Below are positions 10,031 through 31,606 of a DNA stretch of 39,436 bases, one piece after another. The stretch comes from a virus: the IMG/VR virus record IMGVR_UViG_3300046557_000207, positions 1 through 39,436 of that record. One strand, 5' to 3'. Each line of letters begins with the position of its first letter. Position 1 is the first letter of the stretch. The notes under the pieces are model-generated. The model had not been told where the DNA came from. It saw only the letters and a list, made by a program, of their open reading frames with translations, and did no database searches. The position numbers were made by a program, and so were the translations under genes.

Positions 10031-10456
10031 ATGACTAGCTTAGCGTCATTCAAATACGTCTTTCAGTGCGCGCATTGCGGGGCTGATTTTGGGGCAAATC
10101 AAAAGAATAAGATCTACTGCGGCAAGCGCTGCAATAGCAATTCTTTCCGCTCGAAGAATCCAGACAGGGAGGCAGCATACGCGCGGAAATCCCGCGCCAA
10201 CAATCCAGAGCGCAGCAAGAAAGCGCAGGCGATTTACTACGAGAAGCATCGAGAAGAGGCTATAGCCAGGAGCGCGGCTTATTACTTAAAAAACGGCGAC
10301 AAGCTAAGGCAGAAAAGTAGAGACAAAAATCTAGAAAATCCATCACGACGAGCGGGGCTTACTATGTCCTGGCTTAGGCGGCAAGCGGCAGCCAAGGCCC
10401 GCCAAATCGCAATGATAGAAATCAAAGAGCTAGCCAAGGAGCAAGCAAATGTCTAA
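10031..10456 (+). CDS. Zinc-finger basic protein resembling the N-terminal part of phage HNH enzymes
   Basis: A 141-residue, very basic protein. Residues 13-34 hold a zinc-knuckle pattern, Cys13-x2-Cys16 and Cys30-x3-Cys34 (CAHC and CGKRC). It is followed by repeats of the type YYEKHREEAIARS and YYLKNGDKLRQKS, which in other phages precede an HNH or similar nuclease core. No H-N-H core is present here, so catalytic activity is not expected; a DNA-binding remnant is likely. Codons are richer in A/T than its neighbours, suggesting later acquisition. It is the first gene after promoter D and overlaps the next gene by 8 nt. Confidence 0.6.
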   Translation: MTSLASFKYVFQCAHCGADFGANQKNKIYCGKRCNSNSFRSKNPDREAAYARKSRANNPERSKKAQAIYYEKHREEAIARSAAYYLKNGDKLRQKSRDKNLENPSRRAGLTMSWLRRQAAAKARQIAMIEIKELAKEQANV

Positions 10457-11060
10457 ATTCCACAATCTAACGGTAGCGCAGCTTTACAAGGCCCTCGACG
10501 GCTATCTTATCGACGGAGACCACGCCATACGCGACGCGTGCGTTGTTCTCGTCGAGCTGCGCCAGCGTGGCGAACGTCCTGAGGTAACGCGGTCTGGAGT
10601 ATTTAAGTGGTTTCGCGAGATCGCGACAGAACAGCTAACTCCGCGAGCTGTCCTCGTTTTTGCGGATGCATGCCCGACAGTCTTAACGAAGCTATCAGGA
10701 CAGCCGCGAGACTACCAGAACGCCCTAGCCGACGGCAAGCGTATCGAGTGCGCCCACGTCGACGACAAGCTTAACGTCGAGACGCGCAATATTGAAGTTG
10801 TCCGTATGAATAAGTCTGTCATGGACGCAGTCTTCGCCCCGAATGGTAGCATTCGCCCTGTCGAAAAGCAGGCTGAAATACTCGTCGAGCTGGCCAAGGC
10901 CAAGGCGTCCCGCAAGGCTGAATTTAAGCCTGTTGTCATCAAGGCGAACACTGGCGCCGACACGGTAACGGTCAACGGCGTGGACGTAAGCAGCGTCGAC
11001 CTTGCGAACGCCTTGCAAGAGCTTGGCTATGTCATCACTCGCCAGGCTATCGCAGCCTAA
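10449..11060 (+). CDS. Hypothetical protein
   Basis: A 203-residue soluble protein starting at ATG 10449, overlapping the upstream gene. The N-terminal half is helical with paired Cys/Val-rich segments (DACVVLVELRQRGERPEV) and a Trp motif SGVFKWFREIATEQL. The C-terminal part is mixed and ends LANALQELGYVI. The length and charge pattern could fit a DNA-binding or replication accessory protein, but I recognise no family. Confidence 0.6.
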   Translation: MSKFHNLTVAQLYKALDGYLIDGDHAIRDACVVLVELRQRGERPEVTRSGVFKWFREIATEQLTPRAVLVFADACPTVLTKLSGQPRDYQNALADGKRIECAHVDDKLNVETRNIEVVRMNKSVMDAVFAPNGSIRPVEKQAEILVELAKAKASRKAEFKPVVIKANTGADTVTVNGVDVSSVDLANALQELGYVITRQAIAA

Positions 11061-12177: not shown

Positions 12178-12397
12178 GATGCGCATATTAGTGTTTTCTT
12201 TGTAACGATTTTTGCGGCGATCTTTTTGCGTTTTGAGTACAGCACAAATGCAACCGGAAAAGTGCGGCGCTCAACACGTACTATCCATATCAGTTCCATA
12301 ATATCGTCCGAAATCATTCAATAAAACACGAAAAGCTCACTTTCAAACCGCCGCAAACATTCGTTAACATTTTGGCCTCAGGTTGTAGTAATCAGGG

Positions 12398-12406
12398 TTA
12401 TTCACA
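12398..12406 (+). promoter_or_regulatory. DnaA-box match
   Basis: TTATTCACA fits the consensus TTATNCACA exactly and sits 2 nt before a reverse iteron at 12409. A single match could be chance; its position among iterons raises its weight. Confidence 0.5.
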
Positions 12407-12509
12407 GTTTTGCGGCGGTTTGCGCGATGAACAATTTTGCATGCGCGCAAGATTTTTCCATGCGCTAGATGCATATCGAGACTTTTGAACATTAGTGTTT
12501 TCTCACATG

Positions 12510-12524
12510 CATTGATTATCAATG
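12510..12524. promoter_or_regulatory. 15-bp palindrome, operator-like
   Basis: CATTGAT-T-ATCAATG is a perfect inverted repeat around a single T, the size and form of a dimeric repressor or activator site. It lies between the second and third ATTAG repeats. Confidence 0.45.
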
Positions 12525-12657
12525 ACTTAGCGCATTATTAGGTTTTACTAACTCAACCGTTTTCGTTTCAGATTTACAACCCTAGATCTTGCGGCGGTTG
12601 ATTTTTCAGACCGCCGCAAACCGCCGCAAATTGATGCTTATGCTATACCCTTTTACC

Positions 12658-12702
12658 CCATATATCCCCCTGTATCCTTAAAAGGTACAGGAGGGTATAT
12701 GG
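12658..12702. repeat. Long imperfect inverted repeat (hairpin)
   Basis: Arms 12658-12679 and 12682-12702 pair at 20 positions (CCATATA, CCC, CCTGTA and CCTT blocks) with three single-base bulges and a very tight loop. No T tract follows, so it is not a standard terminator; an origin hairpin or protein-binding site is more likely. Confidence 0.6.
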
Positions 12703-12725
12703 AGGGAATAGGCGCGGGAGAGAGA

Positions 12726-12755
12726 TTGACAACCGCCGCAGATGTATGAGATGAT
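12726..12755 (+). promoter_or_regulatory. Possible promoter overlapping an iteron
   Basis: TTGACA at 12726-12731 and, 18 bp on, GATGAT at 12750-12755 (4/6 to TATAAT). The spacer contains CCGCCGCA, so a protein bound to the iterons would block or modulate transcription of the operon starting at 12792. Confidence 0.45.
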
Positions 12756-12791
12756 CGAAACAGCAATGCAACCTGAAAACGGAGTCGGGAC

Positions 12792-14794: not shown

Positions 14795-14825
14795 TTGTCA
14801 ATCGTCGGGCTAGGTAGCATATAGA
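14795..14825 (+). promoter_or_regulatory. Possible promoter for the structured RNA
   Basis: TTGTCA at 14795-14800 and TATAGA at 14820-14825, spacing 19 bp. The spacing is 2 bp longer than ideal, so strength is uncertain. Transcription would begin near 14832, just before the first hairpin. Confidence 0.35.
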
Positions 14826-14831
14826 GAACAT

Positions 14832-15160
14832 GACAAAGACGAAACGAGCCTAAAACATCAAACTTTCACAACCTCTTAGCAGAATGGAAAGCAGATGTTT
14901 AGCGCCAAGCGTCTAGGCTCATGTTAAGACAAGAACCGCGTCACGCGCTTGTGTGATGGCTGCAACCCGCTATAGTGAGCAACGCGGTTCTTGTCTCTAA
15001 GGTTTCAGTTTGGTCGACGCCGGCATTTGTCACCGTCGACCGTGGGCAATAATGGCGCGCGCTGTCGTTGTTGCCCATCAATTCGCGACAGCACTTGCAA
15101 CAGGGCTGGCGCGACAAAGGCGAGAAGTAGAGGCAGTGGTGGGCCTCCTTCTCGCCTTTT
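14832..15160 (+). ncRNA. Candidate structured non-coding RNA, about 330 nt
   Basis: No gene fits here, but four successive hairpins do. P1: GAGCCTA AAACATC (14846-14859) pairs with GATGTTT (14894-14900) and TAGGCTC (14914-14920), with CTTTC/GAAAG (14863-14867/14887-14891) inside and a 13-nt bulge. P2: a perfect 15-bp stem, 14927-14941 with 14982-14996, enclosing 40 nt. P3: GCTGTCG/CGACAGC (15061-15067/15086-15092). P4: a terminator at 15116-15160. A weak promoter precedes. The 5' end is approximate. A regulatory RNA or a long structured leader for the HNH gene are both possible. It does not have tRNA form. Confidence 0.55.
15116..15160 (+). terminator. Strong two-tier rho-independent terminator
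   Basis: AAAGGCGAGAAG (15116-15127) pairs with CTTCTCGCCTTT (15148-15159), and inside it GAGGC (15130-15134) pairs with GCCTC (15143-15147), followed by TTTTCC. It would stop transcription coming from the candidate RNA region. Confidence 0.85.
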
Positions 15161-15416
15161 CCTATTTATGGGGGCTGCAATCCGACGCGAAAGCGAAAGC
15201 AGCCAAACCCGCCAGCGTGATTCATTCCGTATCCTGACTAACCCGGCTTATTATAGTGTCCTCTGTCGCGAGCAAGGCATTCAACGGCGCCTAGGGAGCA
15301 TGGCCGGTCAACTCGCGCTGGCGGTTCTATCGAAAGTCCCCGTGCGGGCAAAGCAGTGCATGCGTCGATTGGCGCGAATCACCATGACGGGCTCCATTGG
15401 GCTCAAGGATCACGAA
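15161..15416 (+). other. Leader region before the HNH gene
   Basis: These 256 nt hold one more hairpin (GGCTGC 15173-15178 with GCAGCC 15199-15204). An open frame in phase with the HNH gene has possible earlier starts at ATG 15300 and ATG 15384. GGAG before 15300 is only 1 nt from the ATG, so I do not use it. No clear promoter seen; TATTAT near 15250 lacks a matching -35. Confidence 0.4.
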
Positions 15417-15719
15417 ATGACGGACTATCGCAGCGCGGAGGCGACGGCCTACCGGAAACTTTATAAGACTGCGCGCTGGCAAAAGCTACGCCTGGCGCAT
15501 ATCCGCGATAGCCCTATTTGCGTCTATTGCGCGAGATCGCGTGAAATCAGCGTGGCCGATATCGTCGACCATATTCGACCACATAAAGGGAATACGGAGT
15601 TGTTTTTCGACCCGAATAACCTACAGTCGTTATGCAAGCCCCATCACGACAGCGAAAAGCAGCGCGAGGAGTCGGGGCAAAATATCGTTAAATTCGGCCC
15701 CGATGGATGGCCGCTATAA
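15417..15719 (+). CDS. HNH endonuclease of the phage packaging type
   Basis: A 100-residue HNH nuclease of the short class found beside terminase genes. Order of motifs: KLYKTARWQKLR (14-25), zinc Cys35-x2-Cys38 (CVYC), VADIVDHIRPHKG (46-58, catalytic His52), NNLQSLC (67-73) and HHDSEKQ (76-82) completing the metal site. In HK97-type cos phages such proteins work with TerL to cut cos ends. ATG 15417 is used because AAGGA lies 7 nt upstream and the family usually begins just before the LYxxxxW motif. Here it is 3.2 kb before terS, which fits a position at the right end of the linear genome if cos lies between them. Confidence 0.88.
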   Translation: MTDYRSAEATAYRKLYKTARWQKLRLAHIRDSPICVYCARSREISVADIVDHIRPHKGNTELFFDPNNLQSLCKPHHDSEKQREESGQNIVKFGPDGWPL

Positions 15720-18252: not shown

Positions 18253-18283
18253 GGTAGGCCCTAGAACGTAGGGACGCCAGAAC

Positions 18284-18314
18284 GTGCGCTTATATTCCTA
18301 GGATATAGGCGCAC
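18284..18314. repeat. 31-nt near-perfect palindrome centred on CCTAGG
   Basis: GTGCGC (18284-18289) pairs with GCGCAC (18309-18314), with TATAT/ATATA inside and CCTAGG at the centre, interrupted by one T-G pair and one bulge. It lies 32 nt after the last gene of the right-hand operon. It could act as a cruciform, a bidirectional terminator without T tract, or a protein site. Confidence 0.55.
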
Positions 18315-18392
18315 GCTCGCATACCCCTACCCCGTCATAGGTATACATTCCTATTGGCTGCTTATATCTAGGAAAGAAAACCTAACGTAATA

Positions 18393-18636
18393 ATATTGCG
18401 CAATATGCGCCAACAAAGCAAGATTGTTGCGCAAATAACGATTGACATTGTGCTTCGATTGGCGGGTGACGACGACTGTAACAAAGCGTGATCACTTTGT
18501 GCTTTTCTTGCGCGACTCGGTAACAATATTGCGCATAGACGAAAGAATATTACGTTTAGACGCCTGTTTGCGCAACAATATTACGCCGCGCAACAATCTT
18601 GCGCGAGAGGGGGGCTAGACGACCTTTTATTGCGCG
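18393..18636. repeat. TTGCGC(A/G) repeat array
   Basis: Cores at 18396 (inside the 14-bp palindrome ATATTGCGCAATAT), 18427, 18508, 18529, 18568, 18599 and 18630. Larger units GCGCAACAATATTACG (18570-18585) and GCGCAACAATCTTGCG (18588-18603) are tandem at 18-bp steps. The 15-mer GCAAGATTGTTGCGC (18418-18432) is the exact inverse of 18588-18602. The order and spacing suggest cooperative binding by one protein, possibly TerS. Confidence 0.7.
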
Positions 18637-18935: not shown

Positions 18936-19337
18936 ATGCCTAGGCCACGCAAGCCGAAAGTTGCCGCCAAGACGGAAGGGCGGGACGTAATGAACAAGGC
19001 CCGCTTCGAAGGCCGCAACGAGTACACGAGCGATGCGCTTGGCGACCCGCCAGACTGGATGCAAGACACGCCGACGTACAAGCCTCGCGCAGCCTGGCGC
19101 CTCTTCGAAGTGGAGGTTCCCTGGCTTAGACAGCGCGACCGTGGGCTTGTCGAGATGGCGTGTACAGTGCGCGGGAAGCTGATAGCCGGTATCGAGCCGC
19201 CAGGCGTTCAAGCCCTGCAGCTCTTGCGCATGTGCCTTAGTCAGATGGGCGCCACGCCATCCGACGCCACGAAAGTAGGAGCGCCGAAGAGCGATGACGA
19301 CAAAAAAGACGACGACGATATCCTCAGTCAACCCTAA
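18936..19337 (+). CDS. terS: Terminase small subunit, P27-like
   Basis: A 133-residue protein that recognises the packaging site and recruits the large subunit. The N-terminus is basic (PRPRKPKVAAKTEGR), followed by the family's hallmark order: GDPPDWMQDTPTYKPRAAW, then a helix with RQRDRGLVEMACTVRGKLI, then QALQLLRMCLSQMGATPSD. The C-terminus is very acidic (KSDDDKKDDDD). ATG 18936 is preferred to ATG 18931 because GGAG lies 7 nt before it, against 2. It overlaps terL by 44 nt. The repeat array just upstream is a natural binding-site candidate. Confidence 0.85.
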   Translation: MPRPRKPKVAAKTEGRDVMNKARFEGRNEYTSDALGDPPDWMQDTPTYKPRAAWRLFEVEVPWLRQRDRGLVEMACTVRGKLIAGIEPPGVQALQLLRMCLSQMGATPSDATKVGAPKSDDDKKDDDDILSQP

Positions 19338-21318
19338 GGCTCGGAAGAGCAAGGAGTCCACCAATGGAAAAGCCAATAATCCCGGCGCCGCAGTCCGGAA
19401 GCCCGTTCGCCGCCCTAAGCCAGGAGTGGCAAAGGCTGCGCGCCGGCCTGCCGCCCCTAAAGCCCCGCCCAATGCGTTGGAGCGAGTATCTGCGTACGCT
19501 AGCGACGTGTTGGGCGGCAAGATCGTTGCAGGGCCTCACGTGCGAAATGCGTGCCGCCGCCATCTTCGTGACGTCGAATTCGGCAGCAAGCGCGGCATAT
19601 TCTTTGACCTAGCCAAGGCAGAGCACGCCTTCCGGTTCTTTGAGAAGGGCCTCAAGCTATCCGAAGGCCAGTTTGAGAATCAGCCGTTCTTGCTCGCGCC
19701 AATGCAGGCCTTTATCATTGGCTCGCTATTCGGCTGGAGGCGCAAGAACGGTCAAGGCGTATCCGTACGGCGGTTTCGTCGAGCGTATATCGAGATGGGC
19801 AAGGGGCAGGGCAAATCGCCGCTGGCTGGCGGCATTGGCCTATATGGCATGTGCGCCGACGGCGAGGCCGGATCGCAGATCTACGCCGCCGCAGCCAAGA
19901 AGGAGCAGGCCGACATTCTTTTCCGCGACGCCGTCAAGATGGTTCGCCAGTCTCCGTTGCTGTCGGCCGTCATCAAGGCGTCGGGCGGCATGGGGAAGGA
20001 ATTCAACCTCGCGCACCATAAGTCGCAATCATTCTTCCGGCCGATCTCGAAAGAGGCTGGCAAGACCGGCTCCGGCCCGCGTCCGCACTTCGCCCTTTGC
20101 GACGAGGTGCACGAGCATCCGGACCGCTCGATAATGGATATGCTTGAGCGCGGCTTCAAGTTTCGCCAGAATCCCTTGCTGTTGATGATTACCAACTCAG
20201 GTAGCGACCGCAACTCTATCTGTTGGGAAGAGCACGAGCACGCCGTTAAGGTCTGCGCTGGCACGGTCGCGCCTGACGACGTCTTTACGTATGTCGGCGA
20301 GGATATCGACGATTCGACGTTTGCCTATGTCTGCGCGCTCGATAAAGGCGACGACCCGCTTACGGACCCGTCATGCTGGATTAAGGCCAATCCCATGCTA
20401 GGCGTTATCCTGACTGAGGAATACATTGCCGGCGTCGCTAAGCAGGCCAGGGATATGCCGGGCAAGCGCAACGGCATTCTGCGGCTGCACTTCTGCCAAT
20501 GGACCGATTCGGACGAAGGGTGGATGAATCGCGAAATGATTGACGCGGCTATGGAGGAATTCGACCCGTACGAGATCCACAAGGGCAAGAATGTCTGCGC
20601 TGGCGTCGACCTTTCGGCCACGCGAGATTTAACGGCAATGGCCTTCGTCGTGAAGACTGGAATGAAGGTCTTGACGCGGGAAGACGGGGAGACAGTTTCG
20701 CTGCCGACCTTCGATTTGTGGATTGAGGCCTGGACGCCTAAGGGGACGCTCAAGGCGCGCTCTGAGGCTGACAAGGCCCCATATGAACTATGGGTTGAGC
20801 AAGGCTACCTCAAGGCCCCGCCTGGCGACCGCATCCGCATGGACCACGTTGTCGACCACCTCGTCAAAGTCGACGCAGAGATGACGGTTACTGGCGTCGC
20901 ATATGACCGCTACGCCTACGAGGCTTTCAAGATCGAATGCGAGGCGCGCGGGCTAACGCTTGACCACGTCGTGCATCCGCAGGGCGGGAAGGTTCGCGCC
21001 AAACCGGAGCCGGAAAAGATCGAAGCGGCTAAGGCTGCAGGCGTCGAGCCTCCTCAAGGTCTATGGATGCCAGGAAGTATTTCTCTGTTTGAGGACGCTA
21101 TTCTTGACGGACGCCTCCGCATCCGTAAAAGTCCTCTCACAATGACCGCGCTAATGGGAGCGGCCTTTGACCATGATGCGCTTGATAACCGATGGTTTGT
21201 AAAAACCAAGGCTAGCGTGCGCATTGACCCTGCAGTCGCCGCCGCAATGGCAATCGGACTTTCTAACGAAAACTCGGTTGTCAAAAAAGAAAAGGCTTAC
21301 CAACTGATAATCATCTGA
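19294..21318 (+). CDS. terL: Terminase large subunit, HK97/Terminase_1 type
   Basis: A 674-residue packaging motor with ATPase and nuclease domains. The first 60 residues are an unusual Lys/Pro/Ala-rich extension; the family core begins near 67 (AYASDVLGGKIVAGPHVR). Walker A is GKGQGKS (169-175), Walker B ends in CDEVHEH (269-275, Asp270-Glu271), and the coupling motif is MITNSGSDRN (298-307). The RNase H-like nuclease starts at CAGVDLSATRD (Asp439), with VAYDRYAYE further on. ATG 19294 overlaps terS by 44 nt and has only a weak GAAGAG ribosome site, so the true start is less certain than the gene; no other in-frame ATG occurs before the core. Members of this class cut cos with a partner HNH protein, matching the gene at 15417. 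Confidence 0.95.
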   Translation: MTTKKTTTISSVNPKARKSKESTNGKANNPGAAVRKPVRRPKPGVAKAARRPAAPKAPPNALERVSAYASDVLGGKIVAGPHVRNACRRHLRDVEFGSKRGIFFDLAKAEHAFRFFEKGLKLSEGQFENQPFLLAPMQAFIIGSLFGWRRKNGQGVSVRRFRRAYIEMGKGQGKSPLAGGIGLYGMCADGEAGSQIYAAAAKKEQADILFRDAVKMVRQSPLLSAVIKASGGMGKEFNLAHHKSQSFFRPISKEAGKTGSGPRPHFALCDEVHEHPDRSIMDMLERGFKFRQNPLLLMITNSGSDRNSICWEEHEHAVKVCAGTVAPDDVFTYVGEDIDDSTFAYVCALDKGDDPLTDPSCWIKANPMLGVILTEEYIAGVAKQARDMPGKRNGILRLHFCQWTDSDEGWMNREMIDAAMEEFDPYEIHKGKNVCAGVDLSATRDLTAMAFVVKTGMKVLTREDGETVSLPTFDLWIEAWTPKGTLKARSEADKAPYELWVEQGYLKAPPGDRIRMDHVVDHLVKVDAEMTVTGVAYDRYAYEAFKIECEARGLTLDHVVHPQGGKVRAKPEPEKIEAAKAAGVEPPQGLWMPGSISLFEDAILDGRLRIRKSPLTMTALMGAAFDHDALDNRWFVKTKASVRIDPAVAAAMAIGLSNENSVVKKEKAYQLIII

Positions 21319-31040: not shown

Positions 31041-31606
31041 TGCGCGACGCGAAGGTTGAACTAGCCTTCGCAGATGGCAATTACGTATTCCGACTCTCTT
31101 GGGGCTCGCTTATCGAGCTTCAAGAGGCCGTCGGGATGGGTCCATATGCGATTCTAAATCAGCTCAATTCCGACCAATGGAAGGTTGAGCAAATAAGCGA
31201 GATCATCCGCCTTGGCATTCTTGGCGGCGACAAGACGCTCCACCCAACGAAGGCGACTAAGCTAGTCGACCGCTATGTCAAAGACCGACCACCATTCGAA
31301 AATTTAGTGCTCGCAAGAGCGGTTCTTACGGTTGCGCTTTTCGGCGCTCCGGATGAAGATGAAAACAAGTCAGCTGCCAAGGGCGATGAAATCGAGACGA
31401 CGGACGGCAAGCTTAAGGCGAAGGAAATCTATGGCGCTGGCGCCGTCATGGGATTCACCCCGCAGCAAATCAATGAAATGTCCGTCTGGCAATTCATGTC
31501 AGCCTTTGACGGCTACGTGAAGCATCACGCGCCAGACGACGGGAAGCTTACGCCTGAGGAATTCAACGAGCTTGGAGATTTCCTCGAAACAGTACCGGAA
31601 GGTTAA
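31040..31606 (+). CDS. Tail assembly chaperone, GTA-like, both parts in one frame
   Basis: A 188-residue protein in TAATG overlap with the tube gene. The N-terminal part (VELAFADGNYVFRLSWGSL, IELQEAVGMGPYAIL) matches the chaperone type of gene transfer agents and related alphaproteobacterial phages. The C-terminal part (GFTPQQINEMSVWQFMSAFD) resembles the second chaperone that many phages make by ribosomal frameshift. Here both parts lie in one continuous frame, so no slippage is needed. It coats the tape measure during tail assembly. Position between tube and tape measure genes supports this. Confidence 0.8.
   Translation: MRDAKVELAFADGNYVFRLSWGSLIELQEAVGMGPYAILNQLNSDQWKVEQISEIIRLGILGGDKTLHPTKATKLVDRYVKDRPPFENLVLARAVLTVALFGAPDEDENKSAAKGDEIETTDGKLKAKEIYGAGAVMGFTPQQINEMSVWQFMSAFDGYVKHHAPDDGKLTPEEFNELGDFLETVPEG

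Follow-up and report, generated by a model that had tools for sequence, protein, structure and literature searches.

A hairpin chain ahead of the packaging genes of an HK97-like phage, probably an undescribed RNA control element for late genes

What is the role of a gap of about 640 nt that carries no conserved gene, lies between the early genes and the packaging genes of a phage, and folds into one hairpin after another? The gap was found in an HK97-like phage genome, a virus record whose entire stretch of 39,436 nt was analysed and is referred to here as the window. A sequence-only reading had suggested a phage regulatory RNA, a packaging RNA near the cos-side genes or a sponge for a host factor. 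The region is very probably a noncoding structured RNA element that belongs to an undescribed, phage-wide family or design, and this RNA probably serves to control how late genes are switched on.

In the window, the gap runs from the end of p66 (14775) to the ATG of an HNH endonuclease gene, and the hairpins within it are placed between the early genes and the HNH-TerS-TerL genes. Capsid, portal and tail genes follow 3' of TerL. Homologues of the HNH protein were identified in 177 of the loci examined. The proteins p170, p66 and 10449-11060 gave no match when used as bait in viral contigs. TerL shares up to ~69% identity with its counterparts in Brucella/Ochrobactrum, Rhizobium and Sinorhizobium phages and prophages, so that the host probably belongs to the Rhizobiales and is probably a soil alphaproteobacterium.

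The hairpin chain and its terminator

Six hairpins were predicted between 14827 and 15160, the last of which is an intrinsic terminator (Table 1). The stems of P1 (GAGCCTA/TAGGCTC, AAACATC/GATGTTT and an inner 5-bp stem) and its 13-nt 3' bulge are present as the sequence-only reading had them (7+7+5 bp), although a variant pairing (outer ACATGA/TCATGT, AGACG/CGTCT) is preferred in longer context. The perfect 15-bp stem of P2 was borne out; among the perfect Watson-Crick hairpins in the 39-kb window, it is the longest. P3 exists with a stem of 8 bp rather than the 7 bp given earlier, and the original list, whose members P1, P2, P3 and terminator are all real, was incomplete in that it missed P4 and P5.

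The terminator has the two tiers described for it, with an outer stem of 12 bp (15116-15127/15148-15159) and an inner GAGGC/GCCTC stem of 5 bp (15130-15134/15143-15147), followed by TCCTATTT. Two bulged bases, T-A (15128-15129), stand between the tiers on the 5' side only, giving the layout AAAGGCGAGAAG-TA-GAGGC(AGTGGTGG)GCCTC-CTTCTCGCCTTT-TCCTATTT. The terminator has an A-tract and a T-rich tail, and a terminator scan matched at 15138-15156. At the other end of the chain, the promoter suggested previously can be seen by eye, but it is weak and missing from a sigma-70 consensus scan, which listed no site upstream of the hairpin chain.

Table 1. Features of the gap and of the genes that follow it (window coordinates)
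Feature	Coordinates	Strand	Remarks
Possible promoter	14795-14825	+	TTGTCA-17-CATATA (or 19-TATAGA); weak, seen by eye
P1	14827-14925	+	Long hairpin, large 3' bulge/internal loop; can pair in two nearly equivalent ways
P2	14927-14996	+	Perfect 15-bp stem (arms 14927-14941/14982-14996), 40-nt loop
P3	15012-15041	+	8-bp stem GGTCGACG/CGTCGACC; predicted fold
P4	15042-15078	+	16-bp stem including G-U pairs
P5	15083-15114	+	Interrupted stem TCGCG..CGCGA
Two-tier terminator hairpin	15116-15159	+	-301 of HNH; carries the bulged-helix motif
T-rich tail of terminator	15157-15170	+	TTTTCCTATTTA; read from sequence
HNH endonuclease	15417-15719	+	PF01844, phrog_2323; first recognisable gene downstream, start of packaging/late block
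TerS	18936-19337		
TerL	19294-21318		

The hairpin region is noncoding. A frame at 14991-15719 overlaps it, which represents an upstream extension of the HNH frame with homology to other HNH proteins from ~15417; no conserved gene covers 14827-15160, in agreement with the original claim. The strong folding also withstood comparison with shuffled sequences, as 14832-15160 (329 nt) folds at -146.9 kcal/mol against -105.7 +/- 5.2 in dinucleotide shuffles (z -7.98, 0/100). When the whole window was scanned in 200-nt windows at almost 400 positions with mononucleotide shuffles, position 15001 ranked first, 14901 fifth and 14801 sixth.

The element is absent from Rfam, with no match in the window at the gathering threshold and best scores of 19 and 17 bits in a permissive search, against thresholds of 60 and 51.5. 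No relative of the hairpin region at the DNA level was detected among the phages and fetched relatives searched, and the P2 arms, used as an exact pattern, were absent from the viral and genome contigs searched.

Other structured or repeated sites occur elsewhere in the window. For example, a 14-bp hairpin inside the tail tube gene (31095-31127) gives the third strongest fold signal. Copies of AACCGCCGCAA / TTGCGGCGGTT are clustered and form two hairpins at 12340-12745 (intergenic 12178-12791), where six copies with at most one mismatch fall within 400 nt, and nine occur in the whole window compared with 1.6 expected. From its sequence, this cluster looks like operator or iteron repeats.

A bulged helix in related phages

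Hairpin chains are found at the same place in relatives. Two phages with the window's gene order (L187 and L188), found with the capsid protein as bait, have a gap behind the early genes that consists of a hairpin chain with a terminator at its end, and in Rhizobium phage 16-3 (NC_011103, about 59414-59850) the 434-nt gap before HNH likewise consists of a hairpin chain and a terminator. The fold z of the gap is -6.0 in L187, -4.0 in L188 and -5.8 in phage 16-3. The first hairpins of L187 and L188 are clearly related (0/1000 shuffles), and P1 of the window is similar to the first hairpin of L188 (5/1000 shuffles) and weakly so to the one of L187 (63/1000). The terminator of L188 is plain and lacks a bulge. 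Phage 16-3 shares with the window the succession of a hairpin chain, a terminator with the bulge and GAG motif, and then HNH, cos and TerS. However, its sequence is unrelated, its UC bulge is in a permuted orientation, it has a CCUCCUCU loop and GUAACUA, and its 3' part is annotated as ORF p109. This hypothetical ORF (L269 7554-7856) overlaps the chain's 3' half and the greater part of the bulged terminator, and is probably no real gene.

The last hairpin of the relatives follows a strict plan, with an outer stem, a one-sided bulge of two bases, and then GAG opposite CTC. A first scan for this motif with a TT or TA bulge, covering the 6 kb before TerL in 90 non-redundant loci, gave 47 gene-strand matches and no minus-strand match in 506 kb. 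A second scan, in which a TC bulge was added, covered 84 non-redundant loci (TerL identity of at least 45%, plus phage 16-3); it placed the motif before HNH-TerS-TerL in 50 of these, the window counted, with a single minus-strand match in 482 kb, and found no motif in 34. With a bulge of any sequence, GAG scores 59 and the next-best trinucleotide 27. The window terminator shares this geometry, being a terminal hairpin on the gene strand before HNH-TerS-TerL with a 2-nt one-sided bulge by GAG/CTC, except that its bulge is UA instead of UU/UC and AG/CU replaces GG/CC. The TA variant was admitted to the scan because of the window, and the case for counting the window as a member therefore depends on geometry, on the location at -301 of HNH and on there being almost no minus-strand matches.

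The stems of the motif vary widely, including GGCGGG, GCGAGCGG, GACCGGG, CACCGGG and GCGCCAGG, with GGCGAGAAG in the window. In a stem alignment, for which the inner loops were trimmed beforehand and the members selected for having the hairpin, seven of 11 pairs are doubly changed and the covariation score lies above all 500 shuffles. In the same alignment, 100% of cells pair, partly because members were chosen in this way, and the evidence for covariation is therefore the doubly changed pairs and not the complete pairing. A second set of motifs, a circular permutation of the first, has its loop at the opposite end of the helix (CTC-CC..GG-UU/UC-GAG), with eight pairs doubly changed. Because the loop is tolerated at either helix end and ranges in size from 2 to over 30 nt, the bulged helix would be readily explained as RNA but hardly as a DNA site.

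In many relatives, a U-tract is missing behind the bulged hairpin, and termination there may therefore fail. Between the bulged hairpin and HNH, Ochrobactrum and Brucella prophages carry tRNA genes or other genes, and in relatives other than phage 16-3 such a separation reaches up to 1.5 kb. In L040 (9054-9221), L046 (1911-2065) and L077 (8853-8924), phage tRNA genes begin about 9-13 nt after the bulged hairpin, and would thus be transcribed only via read-through or their own promoters.

Together, the recurrence of a terminator-ended noncoding gap before the HNH and terminase genes, the covarying and permutable bulged motif, and the lack of an Rfam match support the earlier proposal of a phage regulatory RNA. 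The relatives keep the pairing and not an open frame, the opposite of the outcome that would have spoken against a structured RNA.

A proposed late-operon leader and competing explanations

In lambda, the pR'-tR' late leader ('6S RNA'), which works with Q antitermination, is a noncoding stretch between the regulatory and late genes with a terminator before the late operon. By analogy, the region may be a structured late-operon leader with a terminator gate, a reading to which we assign a probability just short of even, and which as a proposal is about evenly balanced against its nearest rivals taken together. For transcription, gating, the factor involved and any action in trans, we infer the following course. 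A transcript would enter from about 14.83 kb, via its own promoter or read-through, fold into the hairpin chain, and stop by default at 15159, where the two-tier terminator ends. This terminator's bulged stem would be the conserved recognition point for a phage or host factor that permits read-through into the packaging genes during lytic growth, and the short terminated leader may double as a small RNA.

The late-leader reading fits the position between the early and late blocks, the terminator, the recognition-like bulge and the genes downstream; the genes and tRNAs between hairpin and HNH in relatives are consistent with cargo placed behind a gate. Also in its favour, p107, which matches sigma-70 region 4 weakly, is encoded upstream in phage 16-3. 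The AP-16-3 paper (PMC10460002) treats the terminase genes as the beginning of the late region in 16-3-like phages. The window resembles lambda in having a noncoding stretch, a terminator and a late operon, but differs in that the consensus scan found no promoter and in that no Q was identified among the window proteins scanned, for which PHROGs named no antiterminator and left several proteins of unknown function. The element is also far more structured than its lambda counterpart, and has the conserved bulged-helix motif and, in relatives, an anti-Shine-Dalgarno (anti-SD) loop. Besides the missing promoter and antiterminator, the absence of U-tracts in many relatives, the 34 loci without the motif, and the divergence of the window from the form common among relatives count against a late leader.

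In this common form, most motif-bearing relatives have, directly upstream of the bulged terminator, a hairpin with a covarying stem and a CUCCUC or CCUCC loop (also CCUCCUC), which is complementary to Shine-Dalgarno sequences. Such loops make a trans-acting small RNA the main rival, which we regard as unlikely. This RNA would have its own promoter or be released by cleavage at the 3' end of the early operon. In relatives, its CCUCCUC loop would mask Shine-Dalgarno sequences in mRNAs of the host or the phage, with the bulged terminator serving just as its 3' end. Anti-SD hairpin sRNAs with CCUCCUCCC loops have been described in Rhizobiales, for instance RFMSmelA075/RFMSmelA099 (PMC3927594), and the relatives are similar to these in having CUCCUC/CCUCC loops on variable stems together with a terminal hairpin. 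However, the element is phage-borne, present in one copy beside the terminase genes and without an Rfam match, and the window has no CCUCCUCCC-like loop; a hairpin with a CUCCUC/CCUCC loop was sought directly upstream of the terminator in the window, L187, L226 and L252, and none was detected. Moreover, anti-SD loops explain neither the conserved bulge of the terminator nor the linkage to the terminase genes. With regard to the possible sponge for a host factor, too, such loops are a feature of the relatives and not of the window.

A further feature of the common form is a GUAACUA box within 600 nt upstream of the motif, which occurs in 37 of 50 relatives and is absent over the same distance in the window. 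In 977 kb of motif loci, this box was found 49 times on the gene strand versus four times on the other. In L077, L040, L013, L269 and others, it immediately follows a G-rich hairpin arm and precedes the bulged hairpin. A covariance model of the common form, R1, scored the window at chance level (7.7 bits, E 2.8 at 15121-15154). Having no anti-SD loop, GUAACUA box or R1 match, the window would be either a divergent member of the family or an independent element of the same design. R1 also found one copy each in four of six host genomes of known relatives. A host origin of the element was rejected, as R1 matched in two of the family's 151 genomes and those copies in host genomes that were checked adjoin VRR/HNH/TerS prophage genes.

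The late leader and the small RNA can also be combined, in a new RNA family of alphaproteobacterial HK97-like phages whose leader, with its permutable UU/UC/UA-bulged terminator helix and often an anti-SD loop, would gate late transcription by a new antitermination system and interfere with translation in trans. In this full form, the proposal is unlikely.

Terminators are common between gene blocks, and the region might be just an ordinary strong terminator of the early operon, with the other hairpins incidental and the GAG bulge of the window due to chance. The window sequence is without a homologue in the collections searched, and the admission of the TA variant on its account is in keeping with this. 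Nevertheless, a z of -8 over 329 nt, the recurring hairpin chains of L187, L188 and 16-3, and the rarity of minus-strand matches in both motif scans make this explanation distinctly unlikely.

In phage HK022, the put antitermination RNAs are compact two-hairpin modules that stand at the head of an operon and have conserved unpaired bases. The common form in relatives is likewise a compact two-hairpin module with conserved unpaired bases, and could act in cis by making RNA polymerase ignore later terminators of the late operon. Such an antiterminator would be compatible with U-tracts being weak or absent in many relatives, and with the genes and tRNAs directly downstream. The phage element differs in lying before the late block; furthermore, the window hairpin, with its terminator tail, looks like a good terminator, and the loops resemble anti-SD sequences. 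A put-like role is thus improbable.

A packaging element, be it a cos site, a terminase-binding site or a packaging RNA, is highly improbable despite the closeness to HNH-TerS-TerL and the presence of the motif in phages sharing the window's TerL family, because phage 16-3, with the order homing endonuclease, hairpin chain, HNH, cos and TerS, has its element from near 59795 and its annotated cos (60186-60195) past HNH, the element and HNH are separated by genes and tRNAs in other relatives, variable inner loops and permuted forms are unlike a DNA-binding site, and a distinct repeat cluster precedes TerS in the window. This cluster, in the long noncoding gap before TerS, has TTGCGCAAYAAT-like repeats in both orientations (18390-18620) and is a candidate terminase-binding/cos region. 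The same gap holds a 15-bp hairpin, CGTGCGCTTATATTC/GGATATAGGCGCACG, with a 3-nt loop (18283-18315), the second strongest fold signal of the window.

Meaning for the phages of Rhizobiales

A literature search for a described phage RNA of this kind returned nothing specific, and term searches of the Ochrobactrum phage paper (PMC5492332) and the AP-16-3 paper (PMC10460002) turned up no account of one. As an RNA family, it would be new to Rfam. Late-gene control is well understood in lambda-like phages of enterobacteria, and much less so in phages of Rhizobiales. A conserved, covarying RNA module directly before the packaging genes, present also in the long-studied phage 16-3, is a concrete candidate for the late switch of these phages, and one that is easy to test.
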